A DNA stretch of 52,846 nt from assembly GCA_023251875.1 (NCBI GenBank), contig JAHEXY010000016.1, positions 1 to 52,846 of the forward strand, in the 5' to 3' direction. The notes below the pieces were generated by a model that saw nothing but the letters and a program-made list of their open reading frames with translations, did not search any database and was not told the DNA's origin. The first letter of the stretch is position 1, and each line of letters opens with the position of its first letter. Shown in pieces: positions 4,693 through 24,125 of this stretch. A program made the translations under genes and the position numbers. Origin of the DNA: Bacteroidota bacterium. GTDB taxonomy: Bacteria > Bacteroidota > Bacteroidia > JAHEXY01.

Positions 4693-4780
4693 GGAGAAAT
4701 GGCAGAGCGGTCTATTGCGGCAGTCTTGAAAACTGTTGAGGGTAATACCTCCGGGGGTTCGAATCCCTCTTTCTCCGCCA
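4693..4780 (+). tRNA. tRNA-Ser (anticodon TGA)
   Basis: The acceptor stem GGAGAAA (4693-4699) pairs with TTTCTCC (4770-4776), followed by discriminator G and an encoded CCA (4778-4780). The anticodon loop cttgaaa places TGA in a gcagt/actgt stem. A long variable arm (gaggg...cctcc) marks a type II serine tRNA, and the T loop ggttcgaatcc is canonical. A tyrosine recombinase starts 250 bases downstream in the same orientation, so the 3' half of this tRNA is the probable integration site. No second copy of the 3' end was seen elsewhere in the window. Confidence 0.95.
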
Positions 4781-5031: not shown

Positions 5032-6261
5032 ATGGAATCAATCAAAGTGTGTTTCTATCTGAAAAAATCAAAAAAAAGTAAAATCCAAAATGGAAGAATC
5101 CCTATCTATGCCAAACTCAGACTTAATGGTAAGATGGTATCATTTTCAACTCAAATCTATGTTTGGGAAGAAAGATGGAGAGATAGCAAACATTTTAATA
5201 TTATTTTAAAAAATAACGAGGATAAGCTTATCAGAAAAAGACTTGATGCAATCCGATTTAACTTGGATGAAAAATATTACCAACTTGAACGAGTAAACAA
5301 AAATGTTACTGTTCAGGAGGTAAAATCTGAAATTACAGAAAATGGGGGTAAGGTTGTTCAGTTCCTTGTGATTTTTCAAAAATATCTTGATGAATATGCT
5401 AAGAAAGTAAATGTAAATCTTCGATCAAAAGGAACTCTCACAAAATACAGAACCCTATATAAACATGTTGAAAACTACATTTTTGATAAATACAAAAAAA
5501 GCGATGTAGGTTTTAACGAACTTCATTATGAATTTATGGATGGCTTTCAAACCTATATGAGAAATTACTGCGATAATAATACAACCATTAAATACCTTCA
5601 AGCTTTAAAATCAGTTGCCAAATATTGTGTCAATCATAAATTAATAAATGATGATCCCTTTAAAACCTTTAAACTTAACCGCTTTCATGAAGTTACTTCT
5701 ACTGTTTTAACAGAAAATGAAATCCAAATATTAATGAACCAACATTTTGATAGCGAAGCTTTAAATAAAGTAAGGGATATTTTTCTTTTTACTGTTTTCA
5801 GTGGCTTATCTCCTATTGACATAAGGCAATTGAGCATAAATCAAGTTTTTAAAAAAGATGAAGGTTACTGGATAAAATCTAAAAGACAAAAAACTTCTGT
5901 TCCTCTGCAATTTAAGCTAATAAAACCCGCTTCAAATATTGTAGAAAAATATTTGCACTATCCCAATAAAAAAAATCCAAATCTAATATTTCTACCCATA
6001 AGCAACCAAAAGTTTAACCATTATTTAAAAGTTATTGCTGAACATTGTAAAATTAAAAAGAGGTTGTACTGGATGGTTGGAAGACATACATTCGCTACTA
6101 CAATTGCATTAAGTAATGGGGTTCCAATAGAAGTAGTAAGTCAACTACTTGGTCACACTAACATTAAGCAAACTCAGCATTATGCAAGGGTTACAGAACA
6201 ACTTGTTGCTACAAAAATTGATTTGCTGGATACGATTTTAAAAGGGAAGTTGAATATGTAA
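5032..6261 (+). CDS. Tyrosine recombinase / site-specific integrase
   Basis: The 409-residue protein has the layout of Bacteroidota mobile-element integrases: an N-terminal arm-binding domain (about 1-100), a SAM-like core-binding domain (about 105-205) and a C-terminal catalytic domain. GRHTFATT supplies the second catalytic Arg, LLGHTNIKQTQHYARV the His and the Tyr nucleophile. The usual first Arg (GLR) is replaced by Ser in FSGLSPIDI, as described for IntDOT of CTnDOT. The His normally three residues before the box II Arg is Met (WMVGR). Given its position just downstream of tRNA-Ser, it should integrate and excise the island starting here. The element type (ICE or simple genomic island) cannot be told. 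Confidence 0.9.
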   Translation: MESIKVCFYLKKSKKSKIQNGRIPIYAKLRLNGKMVSFSTQIYVWEERWRDSKHFNIILKNNEDKLIRKRLDAIRFNLDEKYYQLERVNKNVTVQEVKSEITENGGKVVQFLVIFQKYLDEYAKKVNVNLRSKGTLTKYRTLYKHVENYIFDKYKKSDVGFNELHYEFMDGFQTYMRNYCDNNTTIKYLQALKSVAKYCVNHKLINDDPFKTFKLNRFHEVTSTVLTENEIQILMNQHFDSEALNKVRDIFLFTVFSGLSPIDIRQLSINQVFKKDEGYWIKSKRQKTSVPLQFKLIKPASNIVEKYLHYPNKKNPNLIFLPISNQKFNHYLKVIAEHCKIKKRLYWMVGRHTFATTIALSNGVPIEVVSQLLGHTNIKQTQHYARVTEQLVATKIDLLDTILKGKLNM

Positions 6262-6298: not shown

Positions 6299-7375
6299 TT
6301 AGGATCTTTTATCAAGCTTAGATTGTAAACCTTTAAATACCTCATCTTCCCTCCCCTTAACCTGACCTACAAAATTGATATAGCCTCCAAGCCTGTTTAT
6401 AAACTTTGTTTGTAATTCAGGGGTAATTGAGCCTGAAATATGAAAGTGCTTCTTACTTGCCATTTCAATTCCATTCTTATTGAGATCATGAAGCATGGCT
6501 CTGATTTTTTTTAAGAGCACTCGATTAACATTTACTTTTTCATTAACTGTAAGCCCTGTAACAGTTTGCCTTTTATTATTGCAGGAAAATCGTAATTTCT
6601 TTTTGTTTATAGTAAAGTTATTTTTTTGAATGAGTTTAATTATAGCTTGCAATTGCTCATTTGAAATAAGGCTATTTGATGAAAAAGTCAAATCATCGGC
6701 ATATCTTGAATAGGCGAAGGAATGCGTTTCACAAAAATTGCTTAAATCATTATCCAACTTGAAACAGATAAAATTGGATATTACCGGTGAAGAAGGGGCT
6801 CCAATTGGTAGTTTCCCTTGGTAAGTTAAAAGCAAAGTAAGGGCATTAGCAATTTGTTCATTGTACTCAAATAGTGGAGAAGTAAAAACTTCTTTTACTC
6901 GTTTGGCTGAAATACTTGGAAAAAAATCTTGAAGGTCGATATTTAAGATGTGCGCCTTGCCAACATGCGCTTTCGCATTCTCAACAATATTACAACTCTT
7001 ACCTTCATGATAAGAATTGATTGTAAAGCCATGCACTTCTTTTGGTTTAATGCATAAATAATATGCTTGTAAATAATAATTCAAATGCTTTTGAACCAAT
7101 TTCAATGATTGATTGGGAGCATGTATTTCTCTTTCTCCTCCTTTCTTTTTCTTAATCTTAAAATATTTATAGGAAGGTGAATTGATCAATTGCTCCATAC
7201 TTTTAAAACCCATCCTTAAAAAATTACATAAATCAATTGGTGTTTGAATTGAAAGTAAAACCAACGCATTTAATTCATGCCTTTGTAATTGAGCCAAGGC
7301 AGATGGGGCTTCTATAAATTTTCCATTATAGAATTCCCAGATAATTTTCTTTTCTTTTTTAGCAATAGAAATCAT
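6299..7375 (-). CDS. Retron-type reverse transcriptase
   Basis: The 358-residue protein shows the RT palm motifs in order: LNIDLQDFFPSIS (motif A, about 144-156), LPIGAPSSPVISN (motif B, about 189-201) and YADD (225-228). It carries both retron-diagnostic signatures, NAxxH (NAKAH, 133-137) and VTG (VTGLTVN, 272-278). It lacks the maturase and HNH domains of group II intron RTs. Retron RTs reverse-transcribe part of an adjacent RNA into a branched RNA-DNA hybrid (msDNA) that controls an effector in anti-phage defence. The start lies 23 bases beyond the a2 repeat of the candidate msr-msd RNA, with the DnaB-like gene upstream on the same strand. Family assignment is secure; function is inferred from known retrons. 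Confidence 0.95.
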   Translation of the reverse strand: MISIAKKEKKIIWEFYNGKFIEAPSALAQLQRHELNALVLLSIQTPIDLCNFLRMGFKSMEQLINSPSYKYFKIKKKKGGEREIHAPNQSLKLVQKHLNYYLQAYYLCIKPKEVHGFTINSYHEGKSCNIVENAKAHVGKAHILNIDLQDFFPSISAKRVKEVFTSPLFEYNEQIANALTLLLTYQGKLPIGAPSSPVISNFICFKLDNDLSNFCETHSFAYSRYADDLTFSSNSLISNEQLQAIIKLIQKNNFTINKKKLRFSCNNKRQTVTGLTVNEKVNVNRVLLKKIRAMLHDLNKNGIEMASKKHFHISGSITPELQTKFINRLGGYINFVGQVKGREDEVFKGLQSKLDKRS

Positions 7376-7547: not shown

Positions 7548-8561
7548 TTAATTGGATGTTTCTATTTCATTTAAGCGATTTGAGGAAATTGAAAACTCAT
7601 TATAATAGCCATCAAAATCATAAACGTGTGTAAAAAACCCATCTCTTTTTAGCTTTATAGAAGCTAATGGCCCATTCTTATTTTTGGCAATATCTATTTC
7701 AACTAAATGATGGGTATTATTTCCTTCACAATCTTGTTCTAAACCATAATAATCAGGCCTATAAATAAAAAATATTTTATCTGCATCTTGTTCTATTGCT
7801 CCACTTTCACGCAAATCGGATAATTGAGGTCGTTTATCTCCTCCCCTTGTTTCAACTGCACGGCTTAATTGGCTTGTAGCAATTACACAAACATTATAAT
7901 CTTTTGCTATATTCTTTAATTCTCTGCATATATGGCTAACTTCTTGCTCTCTATTATTTCTGAATTTATTTGAACTTATCATTTGTAAATAATCAATAAA
8001 AATAATTTTTACTCCATATTGCTCAATATAAGTTTTGCACTGCTTTTTAAAAGTTAAAAAAGCATGATTGCAATTATCATTAATAAAAATCTTATGGTCT
8101 TTCAGTTTATGTTCTACCGCTTCCAATTGTAAAGTGTCTTTAACAAGTATAGAAGCAGGCGTAGTTGCAATAGCAGCAATAATTCTACTTGTGAGAAGGT
8201 GTTCTGATAAATCAAAACTAAAAAAGAGGACAGGTATCGTTTTCGAAATATTAATGGCCAAATTAACCTGAAATAAAGTTTTTCCAATTGCCGGTCTTCC
8301 GCCTATTACAACAAATTCACCTAAACTAAGCCCGCCAATTTGTTGGTCAATATCTTTAAATCCTGTTTTTATAGAGTTTTCATCGTGTTTTTTCGATTTA
8401 ATATTTTCTTTGAATACATCTAAAATAGGCTTTGGCTCTTTTGAAATATTATTATGAAATTCATACTCAATAATCAAATTATAGAGCTTGTTTATTATTT
8501 CGTTATCAGCATCATTTTCATTACTGATTACTGATTTTATTTTTTCTACAATTGAAGTCAT
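7548..8561 (-). CDS. DnaB-like RecA-fold helicase/ATPase, candidate retron partner
   Basis: The ~337-residue protein aligns by motif with the C-terminal ATPase domain of the replicative helicase DnaB: GGRPAIGKT (Walker A, about 87-95), KIIFIDYLQMI (Walker B), IATSQLSRAVETRGGDKRP and LSDLRESGAIEQDAD, then the arginine-finger region. The ~75-residue N-terminus is too short for the DnaB N-terminal domain, and no primase-binding region is visible. Its stop codon lies 5 bases before the a1 repeat, placing helicase, ncRNA and RT in one transcription unit. The frame extends to a TTG at 8642, but the ATG at 8561 matches domain length better. It may be the retron effector, or a decoy of the host or phage helicase. 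It could also be unrelated cargo, though the spacing argues against that. Confidence 0.85.
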   Translation of the reverse strand: MTSIVEKIKSVISNENDADNEIINKLYNLIIEYEFHNNISKEPKPILDVFKENIKSKKHDENSIKTGFKDIDQQIGGLSLGEFVVIGGRPAIGKTLFQVNLAINISKTIPVLFFSFDLSEHLLTSRIIAAIATTPASILVKDTLQLEAVEHKLKDHKIFINDNCNHAFLTFKKQCKTYIEQYGVKIIFIDYLQMISSNKFRNNREQEVSHICRELKNIAKDYNVCVIATSQLSRAVETRGGDKRPQLSDLRESGAIEQDADKIFFIYRPDYYGLEQDCEGNNTHHLVEIDIAKNKNGPLASIKLKRDGFFTHVYDFDGYYNEFSISSNRLNEIETSN

Positions 8562-9061
8562 TTTATATGATTTGTTAGAGATTAATACAGGAAAAAAATA
8601 GGATGTTGTTATTCTTGAATGCTTTTTGAAAAGTATAAGCAATTAACTGCAAGAAAAAATTTAATCACCTAACTTTTTTAACATGTTAATAAATTTGAAT
8701 TGATATGCTGAAAGCAATTGGCTCCAAAATTATGAATCGTGTACGCCAAACTAAGTCGTAGTAAAAATATTTATGAAATAAAGGTCTTGAGCACTTGACA
8801 AATTTTAGTTTCCCGATAAATTGGAATATGAAAAAATTTCTCATCCCACTTAATCTCTACAAAAGGCAATAAAATTTTACCCCGGTAATATTTTCATCAT
8901 TATTAATTAAGGTTTTAGGTAGGTCAAATTTTCTTATTTATGATAAGAATTGAAATAATTTTAAAATATCAAATAATTAAACATCTGATTATGTAACTAT
9001 TAAAGAAATTTCACTTTTCTTCTCAACGAATCCGTTTTATATATAAACCAACTCAAAAACT
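8562..9061. other. Intergenic region between divergent retron and sigma-factor genes
   Basis: No gene was found in these 500 bases. The retron operon leaves to the left and the sigma-factor gene to the right, so both promoters should lie here. The one distinct feature is a perfect 12-bp palindrome ttaacatgttaa at 8678-8689, about 117 bases upstream of the DnaB-like ATG, a possible operator. The rest is AT-rich without recognisable structure. Confidence 0.5.
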
Positions 9062-11928: not shown

Positions 11929-13230
11929 ATGATTAAAAAACTTAAGTTACCACAATTTCGAATTCCCAAACACTTCCTTGATGAAGCCAACAAGATTACT
12001 CAACTTTTTTTAGCACGAATAATAGGCGAGCAGATTGATAAAAGTATAAAATTGATTGATTTAACAATTGGTGACAAAACGCTAAAAAATTGTACTTATG
12101 TTCCAAGATCAACTACTAAAGGGAATTTACAATATCTCATAGATGTTTTAAATGATGGGGAAATTAGAATTAGACAAATTTTAGAAGGTTCTGAAAAGAA
12201 TGCGGAGGGGGATGTATATATTGACATAACTTTATCTTGGAAAGTTCACCCACTCAACCTTATCTTATTTGGGCCACCTGGAACCGGGAAAACATATACT
12301 GCTATTGAACGGGCGGTAGAAGTTATAGATTATAAAGAATGGAGAAAGGCAGATAATGTAAGGACTGAATATCCAAAGAAAGCTCGAGAAATAATCAAAA
12401 CAAGTTTTGATGAACTTAGGAAAGATGGTCGAATTGAATTTATAACTTTTCACCAATCGTATTCTTACGAAGAATTTATTGAAGGTATTAAACCGATAAT
12501 TTCTTCAACTAAAACGGATGCAGATTCAAATCAAATAAAGTATAAAATTCATTTTGGTGTTTTTAAAGAATTAGCAGAAAAAGCAAAAAAAGATTTAGAC
12601 AATAATTATGTTCTTATAATTGATGAAATAAACAGAGGAAATGTTTCTCAAATATTTGGAGAGTTAATTACATTAATTGAAAAAAACAAGAGATTGGGTG
12701 AAGATGAGGTTTTAGAACTAACTTTACCATATTCAAGCGAAGCCTTTTGTATTCCACCTAATTTATACATAATAGCAACCATGAACACTGCCGATAAAAG
12801 TGTTGAAGCATTAGATACAGCTCTTAGACGAAGATTTTATTTTGAAGAAATAAGCCCAATATCAACTTTAATACCAGAAATAATTCCGATAGAAGGTATG
12901 CCAAAAATTGAAATAAGAAAAATATTTGAAACCATAAATCATCGTTTAGAAATACTAAAAGACAAAGATCATCAAATTGGTCATGAATATTTAATGAACT
13001 GCAAAATAGAAAATGATGTAATAGAAGCATTTCAATACAAAATCATTCCCTTATTAAAGGAATATTTTTATTCTGATTATGGTAAAATTGCCTTAGTATT
13101 AGGAGATGACTTTATTGAAAGAGAAAAAAAACAAGACAGCATTAAAGATAATGATAGTGAAGATGAATATTTCTATGAAATTAAAAATGAAATAGAAATT
13201 GAATGGATAAACAAAATAACACTTATTTAA
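11929..13230 (+). CDS. mcrB: McrB-like AAA+ GTPase, first subunit
   Basis: The 433-residue protein has a ~105-residue N-terminal domain of its own type, presumably for DNA recognition. An McrB AAA+ motor follows: FGPPGTGKT (Walker A, about 114-122), FHQSYSYEEFIEGIKP, VLIIDEINRGN (Walker B, about 228-238), then TMNTADKSVEALDTALRRRF with sensor and arginine-finger residues. McrB forms GTP-driven hexamers that translocate DNA and, with McrC, cut DNA containing modified cytosine. A second, non-identical McrB follows 13 bases downstream. The C-terminus ends sooner after the AAA+ module than in the neighbour. Motor identity is secure; the DNA modification recognised is unknown. Confidence 0.92.
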   Translation: MIKKLKLPQFRIPKHFLDEANKITQLFLARIIGEQIDKSIKLIDLTIGDKTLKNCTYVPRSTTKGNLQYLIDVLNDGEIRIRQILEGSEKNAEGDVYIDITLSWKVHPLNLILFGPPGTGKTYTAIERAVEVIDYKEWRKADNVRTEYPKKAREIIKTSFDELRKDGRIEFITFHQSYSYEEFIEGIKPIISSTKTDADSNQIKYKIHFGVFKELAEKAKKDLDNNYVLIIDEINRGNVSQIFGELITLIEKNKRLGEDEVLELTLPYSSEAFCIPPNLYIIATMNTADKSVEALDTALRRRFYFEEISPISTLIPEIIPIEGMPKIEIRKIFETINHRLEILKDKDHQIGHEYLMNCKIENDVIEAFQYKIIPLLKEYFYSDYGKIALVLGDDFIEREKKQDSIKDNDSEDEYFYEIKNEIEIEWINKITLI

Positions 13231-13243
13231 AATATAGCCTAAA

Positions 13244-14647
13244 ATGAAAAGTGAAAATTATAACTTGGAAATTACTAAAGTTTGGTTGGATTGGACTCAG
13301 GGTCAAGTGGCTAATGCCGCATTGGGTGGAAATATTCGAAATGAAAAAGGTAAACCCAAAATACCTAATAGAGTTAAAGAAATTAAATTGAAATATAATA
13401 ACATAACTTATGAAGCATCCTTAGGTGACAATGGTCGCATCGCATTTTCAGTTAAAGGTGGCGACAAAAGTATCAAGATGAAGTTTATTAACGCAGTAAA
13501 AAACGCTAATCAAATTCAAACTGAAAAAATTAGTATTGATGTTGAGATATCGTGGGAAGAATCTGATGAACCATTAAACTTAATTTTATATGGACCACCG
13601 GGTACCGGAAAAACCTATACTGCAATTGAACGTGCCGTAAAAATTATTGATTATAAAAAATGGGGCGAAGCAAAAAGTAACGGAGGACAAAGAGAACAAA
13701 TAAAAATATTATTTGATGAATTTAGAAAAGAAGGTCAAATTGAGTTTATAACTTTTCATCAATCATATTCATACGAAGAATTTATTGTTGGCATTAAGCC
13801 TGAAATTGTAGGGATTAAGCCTGAAGTTGATGTTAATATTGAGGGTAATAACAGTTCCAATTCTGTAAATGCTAAAGAAAGAACTAGCACTGAAATAAAA
13901 TACAAAGTACAACCTGGTATATTTAATAAATTTTCAGAAAAAGCAAAAAAAAACTGGGAGGATAAAAAATTTGAAAAACATGTTCTCATAATTGATGAGA
14001 TAAACAGAGGCAACATAACTCAAATTTTTGGCGAACTAATTACATTAATAGAAAAAAATAAAAGATTAGGTGAAGATGAAGCCCTAGAGGTAAAGTTGCC
14101 TTATTCAGTTAAACCGGATGAAAGGTTTGTAGTACCGCCTAATTTATACATAATAGCAACCATGAATACTGCCGATAGAAGCGTTGAGGCATTGGATACC
14201 GCTTTAAGAAGAAGATTCCATTTTGAAGAAATTACAGCAGATTTAAAGCAAATACCAAAAACAATTTCATATGAAGATTCAAATTTAGAACTAAGAGATA
14301 TTTTTGAAGCAATCAACAAACGGATAAAATTGCTTAAAGATAAAGACCATCAAATTGGACATGAGTACTTAATGTATTGTAAAACTATATATGATGTTAT
14401 AGAGGCATTTCAATACAAAATTATGCCCTTATTAAAGGAGTACTTTTATTCTGATTATAGTAATATTAATAAAGTACTTGGCAATTGTGGCTTTATTACA
14501 ATAAAAGACAAAAAAAACATTCTCTTTCCTAGCCAATTATATAAGTTGAATTCAGAAGAACTTGAAGATAAATATGATTTTAAAGATTTAACAAATATTC
14601 AAGAAATGGAAATTATTACGTCTTTTAATAAAATAGCCGAAAAATGA
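13244..14647 (+). CDS. mcrB: McrB-like AAA+ GTPase, second subunit
   Basis: The 467-residue paralogue of the preceding gene has a nearly identical AAA+ core: YGPPGTGKT (about 116-124), FHQSYSYEEFIVGIKP, VLIIDEINRGN, TMNTADRSVEALDTALRRRF and LKDKDHQIGHEYLM. Its N-terminal ~110 residues differ (WLDWTQGQVANAALGGNIR), so the two subunits probably recognise different DNA features or form a mixed ring. An insertion after the FHQSYSY motif (IVGIKPEVDVNIEGNNSSN) includes a short internal duplication of GIKPE. The stop codon overlaps the mcrC start by 4 bases. Translational coupling indicates a single operon. Confidence 0.92.
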   Translation: MKSENYNLEITKVWLDWTQGQVANAALGGNIRNEKGKPKIPNRVKEIKLKYNNITYEASLGDNGRIAFSVKGGDKSIKMKFINAVKNANQIQTEKISIDVEISWEESDEPLNLILYGPPGTGKTYTAIERAVKIIDYKKWGEAKSNGGQREQIKILFDEFRKEGQIEFITFHQSYSYEEFIVGIKPEIVGIKPEVDVNIEGNNSSNSVNAKERTSTEIKYKVQPGIFNKFSEKAKKNWEDKKFEKHVLIIDEINRGNITQIFGELITLIEKNKRLGEDEALEVKLPYSVKPDERFVVPPNLYIIATMNTADRSVEALDTALRRRFHFEEITADLKQIPKTISYEDSNLELRDIFEAINKRIKLLKDKDHQIGHEYLMYCKTIYDVIEAFQYKIMPLLKEYFYSDYSNINKVLGNCGFITIKDKKNILFPSQLYKLNSEELEDKYDFKDLTNIQEMEIITSFNKIAEK

Positions 14648-15879
14648 AGGTAAAAACAATTTATGAATATGGTATAATTAAATTAGAAAACGAACATCTA
14701 AAAATATTAGACAATTATAAAAAACGAATTAAGCATAATTTTTATGATGTTGCATATAACAAAGTAATTTTTAAAAATTATGTAGGAGTTTTAAAAGTAG
14801 GTAATTTGCAAATTGAAGTTCTACCAAAAATTGATAACGTTTTAGAAGGTGAAAGTAAACTTTGGCGTGACGTATTAGTTGATATGCTACGCGAATGTTC
14901 AAAGATTAAAATTAATACGCTCAACTTCGCAAAATTAAAATCTGAAAAAAAATCGTTTTTTGATTTATATGTTGAACCCTTTTTAAATGAAGTAAAGGGT
15001 TTAAAGCGACAAGGTTTAATTAAAAAATATCATACCGTAGAAGAAAATTGTAAAAGCCTAAAAGGGAAATTGCTTCTCACAAAACATTTGAAGAAAAATT
15101 ATATTAACAAGCAATATTTTTATGTCTCTCACAATGTTTATGATACCAACAATATATACAATCAAATAATTTATATGGCGCTTATGGCTATCCAAGAAAT
15201 TGGCATAAATTCTAAATCAATTTCAATAATAAATGGTTTACTCCTTGATTACCCGTATCAAAATAATATATATATAGACAAAAATACATTTGATAAATTA
15301 ATTTATGATAGGATGTCTATACGTTATAAAAATGCAATTTCAATAGCAAAATTGATTTTATTACAATATCAACCTATGCTTACTAAGGGAAAAGAAGATG
15401 TCATCGCATTTATGTTTGATATGAATAACTTATGGCAAGAATATGTGAAAAGACAACTTGTAAAAGTTAAAGAAATTACTTTTGAATCAAAAAATTCAAC
15501 TGATTTTTGGAAAATAGAAAATAAAATAAATGATAATACGAATAGAAAAATTATTGCAGATATGCTTATTTGGACAAATGATAATTCCGATAAACTTGTT
15601 TTAGATACAAAATGGAAATTGGAAAAAAATATCCTCAATTCAGCCGATTTAAAACAAATGTTTGTTTATAATTTATATTTTAAATGTAAAACCGCCATTT
15701 TACTCGTTCCTGCTATAAAAACAGAATTTATTTGTAAAGGGCCATTTGAAAAACTAGAAGGAGTAAACGTATCTGAATGCATAGTTGCCGGTATTAATAT
15801 TATTAAAAATGGGAAATTAAATCCATCACTTGGAATGGAAATTTATTATCAATTAATCCTTCCGTCTTTACTAAATTGA
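14644..15879 (+). CDS. mcrC: McrC-like nuclease subunit
   Basis: The 411-residue protein overlaps the second mcrB by 4 bases. The N-terminal half is the McrB-binding region (NYVGVLKVGNLQIEVLPKID is typical of McrC). The C-terminal half carries the PD-(D/E)xK nuclease core: IADML (Asp at about 306) followed by LVLDTKWK (Asp321-x-Lys323). McrC supplies the cleavage activity and stimulates GTP hydrolysis of the McrB ring. It ends at the convergent helicase remnant at 15923. Length and motif order look intact. Confidence 0.92.
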   Translation: MKVKTIYEYGIIKLENEHLKILDNYKKRIKHNFYDVAYNKVIFKNYVGVLKVGNLQIEVLPKIDNVLEGESKLWRDVLVDMLRECSKIKINTLNFAKLKSEKKSFFDLYVEPFLNEVKGLKRQGLIKKYHTVEENCKSLKGKLLLTKHLKKNYINKQYFYVSHNVYDTNNIYNQIIYMALMAIQEIGINSKSISIINGLLLDYPYQNNIYIDKNTFDKLIYDRMSIRYKNAISIAKLILLQYQPMLTKGKEDVIAFMFDMNNLWQEYVKRQLVKVKEITFESKNSTDFWKIENKINDNTNRKIIADMLIWTNDNSDKLVLDTKWKLEKNILNSADLKQMFVYNLYFKCKTAILLVPAIKTEFICKGPFEKLEGVNVSECIVAGINIIKNGKLNPSLGMEIYYQLILPSLLN

Positions 15880-15922: not shown

Positions 15923-16010
15923 TTACTGATACACCAACACATAAAGCTTTACTTTTGCCCTTGATACGCCAATTAAGAGTTGCAGCATTATCCTTGTCTT
16001 TTTGAAAAGA
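15923..16010 (-). pseudogene. C-terminal remnant of a NERD-helicase paralogue
   Basis: Reading leftward, this stretch encodes IMLQLLIGVSRAKVKLYVLVYQ and a stop at 15923-15925. It is almost identical to the C-terminus of the helicase at 18873-20555 (IMLQLLIGASRAKVKLYVLVC), and the DNA match includes caccaacacataaagctt. It lies directly downstream of the other helicase (16042-17703), which has its own ending. A third helicase gene, or a duplicate of the second, once ended here and was replaced or deleted. Confidence 0.75.
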
Positions 16011-16041: not shown

Positions 16042-17703
16042 TTAAATAGTTTTTTTCCTTAAAATATATAGAATATTTTTTGCTCTAGAAGTTTGCGCAT
16101 AGAATCTAGCTTTTGATTTAGCATCTTTAGGTTCATCAGGATCGATAAGAAACAAAACAGGGGATTCCATACCTTTAAAGCGGCTTATTGTGGTATAATA
16201 AATATGGTCATTCACAAGCTCGTTTGTTGATTTCAATTCAATAAACTGAATTCCACTTCCGCTAAGTTCATTAAGCCTATAAAGTTCATCATTTGCACCA
16301 TTAATAAGGATAATAATTTCATAAGCCTGTAAGTTTCCTTTGCCTATAAATTCGGTAATAGTTTCCTTAAGTATTTCACCAAGATTTTTAAATGAGTTAT
16401 AGGTTAATTCTTTTACTTTCATGCCTTCCGGTACTCCTTCTTTACTTTCAATAGACAGACCTGTTTTCGTTACTATAAACTCATTTATTTTTTTTGTGTT
16501 ACGACAATTTTTAGTAAGACGTTGTTTTGCAAATTTAGATTCTTCAGGTATGCAGGTAAACCGCTGAAAAATATCCTGTTGTTCATCAAGAAATATACTT
16601 ATACGTCCTTCCGGTTTTACCAACTCATATAAAGTTTTTATCCAATTCTGTTTCATATCCTGAGCCTCATCTATAATTAACGTATCAAAGCTTGCTTTCA
16701 ATGATTCTATGGATGTTAAAAATTTGAGTCCAACTACATGTTCAAAAAAATCACCTTTATTATTTTGTTGAGAAAATGACTTCAATTCATCATGCCACCA
16801 AGCGCTATCCATTTTAAGTATTTGTTCTTCAGCAAAAGCATGAAAGGTATTTGCCGTAATGGTTTGTGTATATTTCTGTAGAGTTTGTTGCAATAAATTA
16901 GCAAGCATTCTATTAAAACAAAGCAGCAAAACACGCTCTCCTTTTTCAGCGAGTTCAAGTGAGAGTTTCTGTATAATTAAAGTTTTGCCGGAACCAGCGC
17001 AGCCTTTAGTAAGAATGTGCTTATTATCTAATAGGCTTTTATAATTGTTTATCTGTTCATCCGTAAGCGCCAAATATTTTTGTTCATCTAAGTCGAATCG
17101 CGACCGCAAGGTTTCAAAAAAAAAGGCTCCTCTCAACAATGTCCTTTTTAGTTTTTCAAAGACTTCAATATCAGTTCCAAGTCTCCCGGGCAAACTCATA
17201 CACAAACCGTCTATTGCTCTTATTATGTGTTCAACAGGGGCTATTCTACCTGTATAATCAATTACCTGGTGGCTTTGCAGTGCAGGAGGATACCAATCAT
17301 TATTTGTGTCTTGTGCGGTAGAAAACCACAAGCACCAACCAACTGGAACAGGAGCCAATAAATTATTAAAGTGGTTAGCAAGCCCGTGAGTTTTAGCTGT
17401 AATCTCATTAATCAGATCATTTTGCTTTTCTTTTCCTTGAAGCCAATCCTGGGTTCTGGCATTATACTTAAAACTTCCACCTTTAGCTTCAATTATTAAT
17501 AAGGCATTAAATCTTCCTCCACGTAAGTCTGCAACTAAAAAATCAAATTCCTTCTCTTTCGTTCCTCCATTTTTTGATCGAAGATTAATTGGGATATGAT
17601 AAAATACGATAAAATCATCAGAAAGTTTTTTTAGTGCATCAAACACTTCTTTTTCTCCATATTCTGATTGACGGTTTATTGGAAAGTCAGATGGTATAAT
17701 CAT
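16042..17703 (-). CDS. NERD-nuclease/UvrD-like helicase fusion (helicase A)
   Basis: The 553-residue protein has an N-terminal NERD-type nuclease-like domain (about 10-130), with Asp54 (EFDFLV) and EAKGG (Glu72, Lys74) as PD-(D/E)xK-like residues. A superfamily 1 helicase follows: GCAGSGKT (Walker A), FDTLIIDEAQD (Walker B), FLDEQQDIF, and near the end TTISRFKGMESPVLFLID and QTSRAKNILYIL (motifs V and VI). Such fusions probably unwind and cut DNA or RNA and often sit in defence loci. It is divergent from the RLAA-tailed small genes, with a palindrome in the shared promoter region. It resembles helicase B in layout but not closely in sequence. The exact substrate is unknown. Confidence 0.88.
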   Translation of the reverse strand: MIIPSDFPINRQSEYGEKEVFDALKKLSDDFIVFYHIPINLRSKNGGTKEKEFDFLVADLRGGRFNALLIIEAKGGSFKYNARTQDWLQGKEKQNDLINEITAKTHGLANHFNNLLAPVPVGWCLWFSTAQDTNNDWYPPALQSHQVIDYTGRIAPVEHIIRAIDGLCMSLPGRLGTDIEVFEKLKRTLLRGAFFFETLRSRFDLDEQKYLALTDEQINNYKSLLDNKHILTKGCAGSGKTLIIQKLSLELAEKGERVLLLCFNRMLANLLQQTLQKYTQTITANTFHAFAEEQILKMDSAWWHDELKSFSQQNNKGDFFEHVVGLKFLTSIESLKASFDTLIIDEAQDMKQNWIKTLYELVKPEGRISIFLDEQQDIFQRFTCIPEESKFAKQRLTKNCRNTKKINEFIVTKTGLSIESKEGVPEGMKVKELTYNSFKNLGEILKETITEFIGKGNLQAYEIIILINGANDELYRLNELSGSGIQFIELKSTNELVNDHIYYTTISRFKGMESPVLFLIDPDEPKDAKSKARFYAQTSRAKNILYILRKKTI

Positions 17704-17829: not shown

Positions 17830-18489
17830 ATGGAAAATAGTGAGAAATTTAATAAGCTATTAGATCTTCTTGGGGAAGCTGAAGCATTTTTTGATGCAAT
17901 TACCATAGATAATTTATATTTATCTAATCCGGAAGTTGATATATTTTGTAGAGACTTGAATAAAAGTATTAATAATTTGCAAATAGGCAAATTTGATGAA
18001 TTAAATAATTTATTAGAAATTTTTTCAAACGATATTTGGAATGAATTTACTAATTCTGAAGCTCAAAGATATATCTCCGAAATATATTGCTTGATAAATG
18101 AAATACAAAAAGAAGAAAATGAGAATAAATATTTGCCACACATAGATATAAATCGTAGTGATAATAGTGAAAAATTTAATACTCTGTTAAATTTACTTGA
18201 TGAAGCCGAACATTTGTTAACCAAAAATACAAATGGCAATATGGGCACTGTAGAAACTGCAGAATTTCTATTAGCTCTTAATAATAAAATAAATAAATTA
18301 AAAGGGGGAAAGCTAGATGAGTTAAATAGTGTTTTAAAAATATTTTCACCGTATAATGATTGGAATAAGGTTACATGGAATGATGGAAAAAAATTAGGAG
18401 AAAAAATATTTCATTTAATAAGAGAATTACAAGATGAAATGGAAATATATTTTATTCCGATACTACCAATTCATAGGCTAGCTGCTTGA
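17830..18489 (+). CDS. Hypothetical two-unit helical protein with RLAA tail
   Basis: Not recognised. The 219 residues are two copies of a ~105-residue helical unit (SEKFNKLLDLLGEAEAF... and SEKFNTLLNLLDEAEHL...), each with a middle segment INNL/INKL-x-x-GK-x-DELN and a C-terminal helix. The protein ends HRLAA. The next gene encodes a single unit that also ends RLAA. The LAA end resembles the ssrA degradation tag recognised by ClpXP, so these may be short-lived proteins. The unit one/unit two junction looks like a fused gene end and start (PHIDINRSDNSEKF). It lies between two NERD helicases, divergent from A and convergent with B. It might be a regulator or inhibitor of them; that is inference. 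Confidence 0.75.
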   Translation: MENSEKFNKLLDLLGEAEAFFDAITIDNLYLSNPEVDIFCRDLNKSINNLQIGKFDELNNLLEIFSNDIWNEFTNSEAQRYISEIYCLINEIQKEENENKYLPHIDINRSDNSEKFNTLLNLLDEAEHLLTKNTNGNMGTVETAEFLLALNNKINKLKGGKLDELNSVLKIFSPYNDWNKVTWNDGKKLGEKIFHLIRELQDEMEIYFIPILPIHRLAA

Positions 18490-18530: not shown

Positions 18531-18851
18531 ATGGAAAATAGTAAGAAATTTAAGAAGCTATTAGATCTTCTTGATGAAGCCGAAGGATTATATGGAGAAA
18601 TTATGATTGGTAATGATTCAACTTATTTCATAGAGATTGAAGAATTTAGGAAAAATTTAAATGAAAGCATTAATGAACTAAGAAAAGGAAAACTTGAAGA
18701 ATTAGATTTTTTAGAAGATATATTTTTATCTAATAATGATTGGGATATTTTAACTGGGTACTGGTATAGAGAATTAGGTGAAAAAATTGGCATCCTTATA
18801 AGTGAGCTAAAATTAGCGAGGGAAGAAGAAAATTATAGACTAGCTGCATAA
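18531..18851 (+). CDS. Hypothetical one-unit helical protein with RLAA tail
   Basis: Not recognised. The 106-residue paralogue of each half of the preceding protein starts MENSKKFKKLLDLLDEAEG and ends NYRLAA. The DNA around the start, aaataaatcatatggaaaat, is the same as upstream of 17830, so a whole gene including its translation-start region was duplicated. It is acidic, all-helical by eye and without membrane segments. It lies 41 bases after the two-unit gene, in the same transcript, and converges on helicase B. The conserved RLAA C-terminus in both proteins argues that the tail matters. Confidence 0.7.
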   Translation: MENSKKFKKLLDLLDEAEGLYGEIMIGNDSTYFIEIEEFRKNLNESINELRKGKLEELDFLEDIFLSNNDWDILTGYWYRELGEKIGILISELKLAREEENYRLAA

Positions 18852-18872: not shown

Positions 18873-20555
18873 CTAGCACACCAACACATAAAGCTTAACC
18901 TTTGCCCTTGATGCGCCAATTAAGAGTTGCAGCATGATATTTGATTTTTCATTTAAAATATCTTTGATAACCAAAATAATAATATCTCTTTCGAGTCCTT
19001 TAAATTTAAGTGAACTGGTGTACCAAAAACCATGATTTTTTGTACCCAACTTTGAAGGGGTTAGTAATTCAAAATAATTATCCTTTTCTATTTCGGTTTG
19101 CAATTGACGTTTTACATTGTTTTTTATGCCAATTAAATTAGAACTAAACAGAACCGCCAATTGCTCATTCAAGTTTTTATGCTTTTTATGGCTATCAATA
19201 ATTTTTTTTACTGCCGGTATTATTTCATTTTCATTTTTCTGGTTTTGAATAACAACATCATGCCCAAATTTTTTAGTAAAGTCAATAGTGCCGGAACCTA
19301 TTTCAGCAATAAACTCATTTAAACCTTCGCCACCGGTAGCCCTGTAATTTTCATAAAGTTTATAGTGTGCTGCATGGTGTTTTAAAAGGCTTAGCGTTTT
19401 TGTATAATTGGGAGAAAAAGCTTGTGCCATATCATACAGTACGAGATAACTCGCAATAGACATACCATTTTCTCCATCGGCAAGCAGGTTGTTTAATACT
19501 ACATCAACGCCTTTATCAAATAGATCTTGGGCTTCATCAAGCACTATAAAATCGAAATGGGCTAAACTATTTTTACTTTTTAGTTCGGCTATGGCTTTTA
19601 AAATAAAGTCAGGAATTGTATCAATATTGGTGTAGCTAAGTTCCTTTTCATCCAGGCCTGCTTGTTTTAATAATTTTTGAACAAATTTATACAAGGGAAA
19701 TACTTCCATGTTTTTCAATAAGCCCTTATTCATCACTTCATTTTTTATATGGGCAGCCAAAAGTTCGTTCCAGCATAAATAAAGTCCCTTTTCTCCCTGA
19801 GAAGTTTTGCGAATCATGTGAGAGAGCGCATAACTCGATTTGCCACTACCGGGAGGGCCTTGTATAATAATTCGTTTGTTTTCTATTAAGCCATCCAAAA
19901 TTATTTTATTCAAATTGAGTCGCTTCTTTGCTTTTTCGCTCGATTGTAATAAATGGCTGAGGTTTTGGTCGGGAATAACTTTGGGACTTAATTCATCAAT
20001 GATATTATTTATCTGAACACTATTTAAATCTGTTACTTTCCATTTTGCTATTCGCTTACCTTTTTCTAAAATCTCAAGTAAAAAATTACGAAAGGTATCT
20101 TCAATTCCTAAGTGCCAAAAATTATCAAAACTTATTCCATCATAATTAAAGGTAGATTGAGGAAAAGCAACGGCATGGCTTACCACGCAATCTCTGATTT
20201 GTTTTTCCTTTAAATGCTTAATTATCGAAGCGGCATTGTCATCAGCTTGAACAAATGGAGATTCATCCATACGTTTACTCAAATTAAAAAACTGATTTGC
20301 AGCATAATAAAAAGTATTTTCTTTGTATTCAATTAATCCACCTTTTACTTCCATTACAATAAGACCTCGCTTATTTAAGAAGACGAAATCACCCTCTCCT
20401 GTTTTTTTAGTGATATGTTTAGCAATCCTCATATTATAAAAAACATGCCATTCCTCTTCTTTATCATATAGCAATGATTCTGTTATGAGTTTATCCAATG
20501 CCTGCTCGCCTTCGTTAGTAATATTATAGGGAGAATAATGTTTTTTAAGGCTCAT
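18873..20555 (-). CDS. NERD-nuclease/helicase fusion (helicase B)
   Basis: The 560-residue protein has a NERD-like nuclease domain at about 15-120 (Asp56 in GDFVFL; VMEVKGG with Glu69 and Lys71). A superfamily 1 helicase follows: GPPGSGKS (Walker A, about residue 235), FDFIVLDEAQDLF (Walker B), YENYRATGGEGL, SSLKFKGLERDIIILV and GASRAKVKLYVLVC at the very end. It is the third gene of an operon after the YhaO-like and YhaN-like genes (22-base gap), which suggests it works on DNA ends processed by that pair. A near-identical C-terminal fragment lies at 15923-16010, evidence of past duplication. Substrate and trigger are unknown. Confidence 0.88.
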   Translation of the reverse strand: MSLKKHYSPYNITNEGEQALDKLITESLLYDKEEEWHVFYNMRIAKHITKKTGEGDFVFLNKRGLIVMEVKGGLIEYKENTFYYAANQFFNLSKRMDESPFVQADDNAASIIKHLKEKQIRDCVVSHAVAFPQSTFNYDGISFDNFWHLGIEDTFRNFLLEILEKGKRIAKWKVTDLNSVQINNIIDELSPKVIPDQNLSHLLQSSEKAKKRLNLNKIILDGLIENKRIIIQGPPGSGKSSYALSHMIRKTSQGEKGLYLCWNELLAAHIKNEVMNKGLLKNMEVFPLYKFVQKLLKQAGLDEKELSYTNIDTIPDFILKAIAELKSKNSLAHFDFIVLDEAQDLFDKGVDVVLNNLLADGENGMSIASYLVLYDMAQAFSPNYTKTLSLLKHHAAHYKLYENYRATGGEGLNEFIAEIGSGTIDFTKKFGHDVVIQNQKNENEIIPAVKKIIDSHKKHKNLNEQLAVLFSSNLIGIKNNVKRQLQTEIEKDNYFELLTPSKLGTKNHGFWYTSSLKFKGLERDIIILVIKDILNEKSNIMLQLLIGASRAKVKLYVLVC

Positions 20556-20577
20556 GTTGAATTGTAATAGTATAAAA

Positions 20578-23001
20578 TTAGATATTGATACAATTATTGC
20601 TTAATAAACTACCATGTGCAGGCTGACAAGTAAAAACAAGAACCTGTTTATCATTGGCAAATTCTCTGATAAGCGATGCAGCAGCTTTTTGCCTTTCAGG
20701 ATCCATATCTGTTAATGGATCGTCCATTGCAATAAAACCATTTTGATCTTTAAGATAATAACCAGACATACTTAGTCTGAGGGCCAATGCCAATGAATCG
20801 TTAGTGCCTTGCGAAAGCAAATCGGTTGTAAATTTTAGTGTGCCATTTGAAATTTCAGATGGAACAATAGTATCCATTATTAATTCTTTGTATTTACTAA
20901 TGGTTAGTTTTTCAAAATACTCTTGTGTTTTTTGATAATAGGGTTTAAATACTGCATCATTTCCTACTTCAAGTATTGCATCCAGTTTTTCTAAAATTAA
21001 TGAATAGGCTTTACCCTCTCGTTTTAATTTTTCAAAATCATTTTCATAAACCGCTATTTCTGCCTTAAGCTCATCTGATGACTTTTCAGGTTCATTGGCT
21101 AATAATTCTGTTCTTTCAGTACTCAAGCCATGGAATTCAATTTTTACCTTATCAAGTTCATCTCTTTTTAATTCAAATTCTTTAATAAACCCTTCGGCAG
21201 AAGCTATATTTTCAGGAAGCGGTTTTAATTCTTTTATTTTGTTTTCAATTTCACGCTGCTTCACCCTTTCATCTAATAAATCATCATCAAGTTTTTTATA
21301 ACTTGTATAAAGGTTCAATAATTCGCTCAATGCTTTTGCATCCGACTCATTTTTAGTTTTTGTTTCGGCATACAATTTATCTTTTATCGAAATTTCATTT
21401 CTTAGAAATTGAACATCCCTTGATGCAGCCAATTGATCAACCTCTTTTATTTCTTTCGAAAGATCCTCTATTTTATCTTTACCCAATACACTTTCAAGAC
21501 TTTTATTCAGAACCTGGAGGTCTGATTTTGCTTGCTTTTCTTTTTCTAATAATGCTTCCAGATCAGATGTTTTTTCTACATCATATTTTTTAAAAATAGT
21601 ATTGAGTTTATCGTTAGCCGTATTTATTTTTTCAATTAAAACCTGAACATCTTCATTTCCTGATGAAGCATTTAAAATAAAATTATCTGTTTCCAAAATG
21701 AATCGCCCTGATACATTCGACTCAAATTTTTCATTGGGTTTTATTTCAAGGCTTTCTTCATTTTCAATACCCCTTGTAAGTTTGGCATTTACCAGTTTTT
21801 TAGCAATAATAGATAAACTAAGTTGCTGGGCTGCCAGTTTTATTTGGGTATCATTTAATATTTTAATATTGGCTTTGGCTTCATTCAAATCTGTTGGGTC
21901 TACTTTTATTAAATTTTCGGTCTTTAAAAGCTGCTCTTTAATTTGCGCTAGAATTTTTGAGGCATTTTCAAATTTTTCTTTTTTCGATTGTATAGAAGCT
22001 TTTTTATCTGCAATTTTTAATTCATCATTTATTTTTTTCAATTCCTCATCTAATTCAAGTAATTTTTGCGCATAGTTTTTTGTATTGGCTTCCAGTATAG
22101 GAAAATGAGCAAGATCCTTTTGCATTTTCTCCGTTTTTAATTTAATGGTATTAAGTAAAGAAGTCAATTCACTATGCTTGCGTACATCATCTACTAATTG
22201 CTTATTGGTTTCAACAAAGCCTTGTAGGGTTCTAAGTTTTAATTGAATCGCTTCAATTTTTTTAGCCAGGGCATCAAGTTTAGCGTCATAATCTAAACTC
22301 AATTTTAAATTTCTGCGAGAAGTTTCTTTTTCATAATATTTTTTGAGAATGTAACCAACCTTGTTTTTATGTGGAATGTCAATTCCAGTCCCATTTAAGG
22401 GTAAAGCAAGAATGTCATTCCAGTTGTTGTAATAATCATCACATTTATTTTTCAAAAGCTGCTTTAATACCTCAACAGAAATTCCTCCTTGCAACTGAAC
22501 AGCTCCTCTTAAAATTCCGGAAAAGGAATTGATAATATCTTTTTCCTTTTCCTTCTTTATAGTTTCAATTGTAGCTGAAAGAGTATTTTGTTTGGCAAAT
22601 AAAACATTCTCCCAAGTAGCTCTATTTAACCGAATTAGATTTTCAAGTTCTTTTTGTACAGTAACAGGATTAGTTGTAACACTTGAATCAGGCTTTATAA
22701 GTTTAGATACACTTGTACCTCCCCATGATTTAGTTAGGACATATTTTTTTTCATCAATCTCAAATTCCATTGTGATATTTATTGTATCACCACCTCCAAT
22801 AGGCAAAAAATTCTCAATTTCTTTTTTAGTTTTATCTTTTAATGGAATAGTAGGTATAAATAAAGCAAGTAAAATGGCACGGACAATTGTACTTTTTCCG
22901 GCTTCATTTTTTCCAACTATTACATTGAGTCCATCTGTGAAAGTAATTTCACGTTCCCTTATCCCGGCAAAAGGATGAAGTATAATTTTTTTAATAATCA
23001 T
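20578..23001 (-). CDS. YhaN/SbcC-like SMC-type ATPase
   Basis: The 807-residue protein starts with an SMC/Rad50 N-terminal ATPase half (IVGKNEAGKSTIVRA). A long coiled coil of roughly 550 residues follows, interrupted near the middle by a short globular stretch. The C-terminal half has LSQGTNDSLALALRLS (ABC signature), FIAMDDPLTDMD (Walker B) and FTCQPAHG (switch His). No CxxC zinc hook is seen at the coiled-coil apex, so it is closer to YhaN than to classical Rad50/SbcC and is shorter than both. Partnered with the overlapping phosphoesterase gene, it would form an ATP-driven DNA-end clamp and nuclease. Coding overlaps upstream by 4 bases. Family assignment is firm; a defence or repair role is inferred. 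Confidence 0.9.
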   Translation of the reverse strand: MIIKKIILHPFAGIREREITFTDGLNVIVGKNEAGKSTIVRAILLALFIPTIPLKDKTKKEIENFLPIGGGDTINITMEFEIDEKKYVLTKSWGGTSVSKLIKPDSSVTTNPVTVQKELENLIRLNRATWENVLFAKQNTLSATIETIKKEKEKDIINSFSGILRGAVQLQGGISVEVLKQLLKNKCDDYYNNWNDILALPLNGTGIDIPHKNKVGYILKKYYEKETSRRNLKLSLDYDAKLDALAKKIEAIQLKLRTLQGFVETNKQLVDDVRKHSELTSLLNTIKLKTEKMQKDLAHFPILEANTKNYAQKLLELDEELKKINDELKIADKKASIQSKKEKFENASKILAQIKEQLLKTENLIKVDPTDLNEAKANIKILNDTQIKLAAQQLSLSIIAKKLVNAKLTRGIENEESLEIKPNEKFESNVSGRFILETDNFILNASSGNEDVQVLIEKINTANDKLNTIFKKYDVEKTSDLEALLEKEKQAKSDLQVLNKSLESVLGKDKIEDLSKEIKEVDQLAASRDVQFLRNEISIKDKLYAETKTKNESDAKALSELLNLYTSYKKLDDDLLDERVKQREIENKIKELKPLPENIASAEGFIKEFELKRDELDKVKIEFHGLSTERTELLANEPEKSSDELKAEIAVYENDFEKLKREGKAYSLILEKLDAILEVGNDAVFKPYYQKTQEYFEKLTISKYKELIMDTIVPSEISNGTLKFTTDLLSQGTNDSLALALRLSMSGYYLKDQNGFIAMDDPLTDMDPERQKAAASLIREFANDKQVLVFTCQPAHGSLLSNNCINI

Positions 23002-24125
23002 AATTTTGATTTTTCTATTAGTTCATTTGCGAGTTGAAGTGCTAATCCATCATCATCAGCTGAAATTAATGACGAAAGTAATTGATGCGGTATTGAATCA
23101 TTTGGATATAATGCATTGATGTACGCCTGGTCAATATATTCATTTAGTAAGTCGTTGCTTTGAAAAAATAAAAATTCATCATTTAATTGCTGAAGTTTAT
23201 TTCTGGCTTTTGCTAAATCTTCCATTTTTAATCTTCCATTCAGCTCAATACGTAACATTGAATTTAATTTATCAAGGCTATTTAATTCCATTACTAATTT
23301 TTCAAAATCGTCCAATGAATTGAGTTGCCATTTCAGGTCGAAAAATTTAATACTTCCGGTTTCTATCAAATCTGCTTTGATTGATTTTTTTTCATCAACC
23401 TCAATTAACCAACAGTAACCTCCATGTTTACGATCCCAACCATCGGGAGTATGAGTGGCCGGCATAAAATAACCCGGATTGGTAGAAACCGAAGTTTTAG
23501 GATAGGGCACATGTATATGTCCGAGCAGCCAAAAATCAAGCTTGCTGTCTTTTAATTCCTGAGGTTTCATATTAAAATATTTCTCTCTCTCATCAAGGCC
23601 CATTCCTTCAACATTTCCATGTGCAATACCAATATTTATTGCTTCCGGTTCAAGAGTTTCTTTTGCCACCCACCCAATCATATTTTCTTCTGAATGTTTG
23701 CTTTTGCAACAAGCCGGAAAAAATACAAGCTTTTGGTCTTTTATGTTAAATTCTTGTGGTGCGTATTCAGATAAAATAAATAGTTTTTGCTCATCGGCCT
23801 CTTTATGAAATTTGTCCCATAATGTACCTGATGATGATTCAAAAAAATCGTGATTTCCAGGAACTATCAATACCGCCTCCCCTGCAAAAGAATTTAAGAT
23901 TTTTACAGTTGCTTTAATATCTCCTGACTTTACATTTACGCTATCGAATAAATCTCCTGCAATTACTAAAAAATGACAATGTGTTTCATTGGCATTGTCA
24001 ACAATTCTCTTTAATGCATTTAATCGCTCTTCAAGTAGTTTTTCTTTTACTTTTTGGGGGTATTCTTTATTACTAAATTTCATGCCAATATGATTATCGG
24101 CAGTGTGCATAATTTTTATAGCCAT
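22998..24125 (-). CDS. YhaO/SbcD-like metallophosphoesterase nuclease
   Basis: The 375-residue protein carries the calcineurin-like Mre11/SbcD motifs in order: ADNHIG (Asp10, His12), IAGDLFD (Asp58), VPGNHDFF, GIAHGNVEG and LLGHIHVPYP. A C-terminal capping region follows. These residues bind two metal ions, typically manganese, for DNA exonuclease and endonuclease activity. It is the first gene of the operon and its end overlaps the YhaN-like gene by 4 bases, so the two products should form a complex. Length is close to YhaO/SbcD. A chromosomal repair role is possible, but the island setting and the downstream NERD helicase favour a specialised module. Confidence 0.92.
   Translation of the reverse strand: MAIKIMHTADNHIGMKFSNKEYPQKVKEKLLEERLNALKRIVDNANETHCHFLVIAGDLFDSVNVKSGDIKATVKILNSFAGEAVLIVPGNHDFFESSSGTLWDKFHKEADEQKLFILSEYAPQEFNIKDQKLVFFPACCKSKHSEENMIGWVAKETLEPEAINIGIAHGNVEGMGLDEREKYFNMKPQELKDSKLDFWLLGHIHVPYPKTSVSTNPGYFMPATHTPDGWDRKHGGYCWLIEVDEKKSIKADLIETGSIKFFDLKWQLNSLDDFEKLVMELNSLDKLNSMLRIELNGRLKMEDLAKARNKLQQLNDEFLFFQSNDLLNEYIDQAYINALYPNDSIPHQLLSSLISADDDGLALQLANELIEKSKL

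Follow-up and report, generated by a model that had tools for sequence, protein, structure and literature searches.

Gene organization of the locus

The window, that is, the whole stretch of DNA analysed here (52,846 nucleotides, representing one whole contig from the otherwise complete genome of a Bacteroidota bacterium), contains three open reading frames, all on the minus strand, within positions 18873-24125:

22998..24125, minus strand: gene 1 (P0003), Mre11/SbcD-like calcineurin-type phosphoesterase, 375 aa
22998..23001, minus strand: overlap of genes 1 and 2, 4 bases (ATGA)
20578..23001, minus strand: gene 2 (P0002), Rad50/SMC-like coiled-coil ATPase without zinc hook, 807 aa
20556..20577, minus strand: gap between genes 2 and 3, 22 bases
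18873..20555, minus strand: gene 3 (P0001), NERD nuclease domain fused to an SF1-type helicase, 560 aa

The genes are packed as reported in a preliminary description of the locus, with both the overlap and the gap found, and the identities proposed there for the three proteins agree with their Pfam domains (Metallophos, AAA_23/SMC_N, and NERD plus helicase domains, respectively). Elsewhere in the same-strand run, gaps of -14 to 2 bases occur within recognisable operons (type I RM and AbiE), and gaps of 111-1169 bases separate units. Against these neighbouring sizes, the 22-base gap is compatible with co-transcription, although it is no proof of it, and the Mre11–SMC pair and the NERD helicase probably share one transcript. 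Promoter and terminator scans of the sequence stayed at or close to the level of shuffled sequences, and a TAnnTTTG motif was less frequent than expected by chance; both results are uninformative on co-transcription.

Defence island around the three genes

After a tRNA-Ser gene (4693-4780) comes a gene for a tyrosine-type integrase (5032-6261, assigned by sequence reading), and then a retron-like reverse transcriptase (RT), McrBC, two NERD helicases, and two AbiE pairs, as well as RhuM/PDC-S05-like, type I RM, and PDC-S01 genes. Taken together, these genes make the region a defence island.

Several other features of the island were observed. The retron-like RT (6299-7375, minus strand) matches PADLOC RT types XI, XII, and I-C near 1e-97 and is adjoined by a DnaB-like ATPase gene (7548-8642, minus strand); no Rfam retron RNA was found. 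Two tandem mcrB-like paralogues with approximately 80% identical blocks (11929-13230 and 13244-14647, plus strand) precede mcrC (14644-15879, plus strand). Moreover, intergenic repeats of 87-95% identity lie between defence genes (10470-10626/28790-28947, 25451-25603/29226-29377, and 36748-36982/38584-38818).

The Mre11-like phosphoesterase and the hookless SMC-like ATPase

P0003 matches Pfam Metallophos (1e-12), and its residues D10, H12, D58, N91, H92, H169, H203, and H205 are invariant across 13 relatives. Its profile matched solved SbcD/Mre11 chains (best match 4e-10), and its score against the NCBIfam SbcD model was 44.9 bits, under the cut-off of 77.65. A weak match to PDC-S10 was its sole PADLOC match. 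In a tree of Mre11-like proteins, P0003 falls within a 27-row clade (100/99), in which it groups with the protein of genome G485 (57% identity, locus L114), and Bacillaceae YhaO-like rows lie outside this clade. The YhaO/YhaN label applied in the preliminary description is thus a loose one.

P0002 matches AAA_23 (1.8e-8) and SMC_N (7.8e-7) in Pfam, with conserved Walker A (GKNEAGKST), signature (LSQGT), and Walker B (DDP) motifs. As was noted before, the zinc hook is missing: no CxxC motif is present in the protein or in its 31 relatives. An AlphaFold model (pLDDT 81, pTM 0.45) shows an ATPase head and a long coiled coil, with a six-strand tip at residues ~393-446 where the hook would be; a small β-domain is accordingly predicted for the tip. 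Among solved structures, Rad50 chains come closest (Z 27.9 over 282 residues); LmuB structures were among the Foldseek matches, and the best PADLOC match was a partial one to LmuB (1.6e-19).

The NERD helicase and its relatives

P0001 contains NERD (8.7e-11), DEAD (2e-9), and SLFN-g3 helicase (9e-9) domains, and its catalytic positions are intact (D56, E69, K71, GPPGSGKS, and DEAQD). In PADLOC it best matches the model for NERD helicases associated with reverse transcriptases (RTasNERD-Hel, 2.5e-28), and no sequence relative was found in the PDB. When relatives were sought in 395 genomes of the phylum and 395 genomes of the class, the six nearest formed one clade (100/98), each of them encoded behind a DNA cytosine methylase gene. 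In three of these loci (L105, L106, and L154) the helicase operon continues with an ~830-aa gene, DrmA, and DrmB, the last two being called by HMM in L105 and by similarity in L106 and L154. A Mre11 or SMC gene was found beside none of the six. Where the locus is long enough to read, the kin of this helicase are at home in DISARM-like operons.

A trace of a similar gene is present within the island:

15931..16002, minus strand: remnant, 3' end of a gene like the P0001 gene, 72 bases, 89% identical to 18878-18949

The local alignment score of the two segments was 58, compared with at most 21 among 300 shuffles, which points to past rearrangement of such helicase genes in the island. The 2.9-kb stretch flanked by these direct copies of the P0001 3' end holds the second NERD helicase (16042-17703) together with two small open reading frames, an arrangement resembling cassette exchange. 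The small open reading frames (17830-18489 and 18531-18851, plus strand) have in common a repeat of ~70 aa present in three copies, and both terminate in RLAA (EENYRLAA and PIHRLAA), resembling an ssrA-type degradation tag; the tmRNA tag of the host is GEYNYAMAA.

Distribution and genomic neighbours of the pair

Full-length relatives of P0002 were detected in 5 of the 395 genomes searched from the phylum, 3 of the 395 from the class, and 11 of the 92 from the Fodinibius family (the family of Fodinibius roseus, contig NZ_FQUS01000024.1), and also in Bacillota, Verrucomicrobiota, Spirochaetota, and Candidatus Tritonobacter. In every locus readable on both sides the Mre11 gene precedes the SMC gene, mostly with a 4-base overlap. 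The pair is a conserved unit across phyla, and it occurs without the helicase.

Defence genes recur beside the pair in the Fodinibius family. A Drt2 RT gene (6e-151) overlaps the Mre11 gene in L014 (4681-7169), and in L016 (51-8005) the pair directly follows a UG39 RT (1e-156), itself behind PglZ and BrxL; PDC-S06 (L133), SIR2 and HerA (L135), the type I methylase HsdM (L137), and ZorA2 (L138) are found near it in other members. Three loci (L131, L134, and L136) have no strong defence neighbour, and one copy of the pair is decayed (L139). Outside this family, the pair adjoins the BREX genes BrxC/PglX in Candidatus Tritonobacter (L032). Its surroundings in Bacillota, Verrucomicrobiota, and Spirochaetota are ordinary genes, including those for sulfatases, transporters, and CoA transferases. 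At a threshold of 1e-20, 85 proteins encoded near the pair in the Fodinibius family matched 190 PADLOC models and 95 pair neighbours in other groups matched 5, figures that represent a contrast and not a count of independent systems, since PADLOC models are redundant; L032 had been excluded from the latter set because its BREX genes had already been seen, which leaves that set cleaner than warranted.

These data also bear on the possibility that the pair performs ordinary DNA repair as a substitute for SbcCD and came to lie in the island by chance, with the helicase as an unrelated passenger. No second SbcD-like gene was found in the host genome, so the pair, which holds the sole one, could serve as a housekeeping SbcCD substitute, and the ordinary neighbours outside this phylum point in the same direction. 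However, the patchy occurrence of the pair, the decayed copy, and the recurrence of defence neighbours argue against such a role, and we regard this explanation as quite improbable.

Relationship between the pair and the helicase

The preliminary description had treated the three genes as one system. This part of it does not hold up across genomes: when the NERD-helicase profile was run on the other Mre11–SMC loci with a readable downstream side, all from genomes outside the family of the window, an adjacent NERD-helicase gene was found in 0 of 28, so that the pair stands without it in all of them. For a pair in core positions, which had likewise been named as evidence against a single system, the picture is mixed: the positions are ordinary in Bacillota, Verrucomicrobiota, and Spirochaetota, but the pair occupies defence islands in the Fodinibius family and adjoins BREX in Tritonobacter. 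Among 14 pair-bearing genomes, no P0001 match lay beside the pair, and one distant match was located on another contig. Two loci of the Fodinibius family have a different, SLFN-g3-type helicase some genes away. The locus with the nearest pair (L114) stops at a contig edge, where a helicase is possible, and a P0001 search of that genome (81% complete) gave no match. A scan of genome contigs with P0001 alone as the query and scans of viral contigs with P0002, A4, and A5 as queries found no relatives.

One look-alike was considered and set aside. In a Selenomonas plasmid locus (L002), genes for a NERD helicase, an AAA ATPase, and a metallophosphoesterase occur close together; the ATPase is of the AAA+ type and carries AAA_lid_6, and both it and the metallophosphoesterase fail to match the pair.

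It remains conceivable that the genes form a true three-component defence system in this lineage only, in which DNA ends would be sensed and clamped by the pair, and unwound and degraded by the NERD helicase as its dedicated partner. The shared strand, the 4-base overlap, and the short gap are in line with this idea, as are nuclease-helicase genes adjoining Mre11/SMC genes elsewhere, such as those for UvrD–PD-(D/E)XK proteins in Armatimonadota, and a PIF1-like helicase gene 46 bases downstream of the pair in L020. On the other hand, a second example is absent from the 28 readable loci and from the helicase side, the place of the helicase clade is in methylase/DISARM-like operons, and the remnant 2.9 kb away, a second 3' end of such a gene, shows that these helicases move within the island. 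A dedicated trio therefore appears unlikely. The Mre11–SMC pairs next to the UvrD–PD-(D/E)XK genes in Armatimonadota and relatives (L049, L052, L062, and L067) are more distantly related ones, and these helicase genes lie immediately upstream of them.

The reading that we favour, and consider fairly likely, is that the locus represents a conserved pair joined here with an independently mobile helicase, the pair having been recruited into the defence islands of the phylum. It is plausible that the pair is an uncatalogued defence-associated module. A further proposal, that such a module plugs into Drt2, BREX, SIR2–HerA, Zorya, and type I RM systems and that a NERD helicase of the DISARM family has become its dedicated third part here, seems doubtful to us. 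PADLOC has no system model for the three-gene set, and a named system with exactly these genes was not found in the literature searched (coverage incomplete), in keeping with the preliminary description, which knew of no such system.

Possible function

The best reading of the pair itself is a hookless Mre11–Rad50-type nuclease recruited to the phylum's defence islands, its defence activity being suggested by location. Mre11–Rad50 complexes are known to detect DNA ends that are free, hairpin, or blocked and to cleave them (PMC6265447, PMC10586767), and by analogy with this activity the pair may detect and cut the ends of invading DNA. The SMC-like protein would dimerise via its ATPase heads, clamp DNA with coiled coils closed at the tip by the small β-domain, and gate the Mre11-like nuclease, for which free, hairpin, or protein-blocked ends would be the substrates. 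The likely targets here would be ends of phage or plasmid DNA, along with replication intermediates. The NERD nuclease–helicase could then unwind and degrade the cut DNA, should it cooperate with the pair.

If this interpretation is true, a Mre11–Rad50-type machine without a hook in defence islands would tie DNA-end processing to antiviral immunity, and a single shared DNA-end module may serve several defence systems. The pair lies repeatedly in defence islands and is listed as a system in none of the libraries searched. The locus also offers a caution: close packing of genes in a single genome is not enough to define a system, and the helicase here belongs to the operon of another family.

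Comparison with known systems

The pair resembles SbcCD/Mre11–Rad50 in its adjacent metallophosphoesterase and Rad50-like coiled-coil ATPase genes, its conserved catalytic and ATPase motifs, and the fold of P0002, to which Rad50 is the closest solved one. It differs in that the SMC protein of the window is shorter (807 aa), lacks a CxxC hook, has a predicted β-domain tip, and carries a DDP Walker B, and the Mre11-like protein scores below the SbcD cut-off of NCBIfam (44.9 vs 77.65 bits). YhaO–YhaN of B. subtilis likewise joins a Mre11-like protein to an SMC-like ATPase that has no hook, a combination shared by the window, whereas Bacillaceae YhaO-like rows are placed elsewhere in the Mre11 tree, which did not include the B. 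subtilis proteins themselves.

Lamassu/DdmABC also uses a Rad50-like protein, LmuB, in defence, and P0002 matches LmuB in part (1.6e-19). Unlike Lamassu, the window has no LmuA effector and no LmuC match, the partner is a Mre11 nuclease, and the Walker B is DD, in contrast to the Q described for LmuB (PMC10586767). Gabija, which consists of the OLD-TOPRIM protein GajA and the helicase GajB, differs in that P0002 has no TOPRIM match and only a 46-residue match to GajA. RTasNERD-Hel is associated with DRT, whereas the only RT of the window (6299-7375) is 11 kb from the helicase. The link of the locus to DISARM and related DrmA/DrmB systems is its helicase, the six nearest relatives of P0001 being encoded behind a methylase and three of them with DrmA/DrmB-like genes, but the window helicase has no adjoining methylase, DrmA, or DrmB. 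Finally, in addAB–sbcDC repair operons helicase–nuclease genes adjoin Mre11–Rad50 genes, and a similar gene set was found in Armatimonadota loci; the helicase there is a UvrD–PD-(D/E)XK protein of 1000 aa encoded upstream of the pair, whereas that of the window is a NERD helicase.
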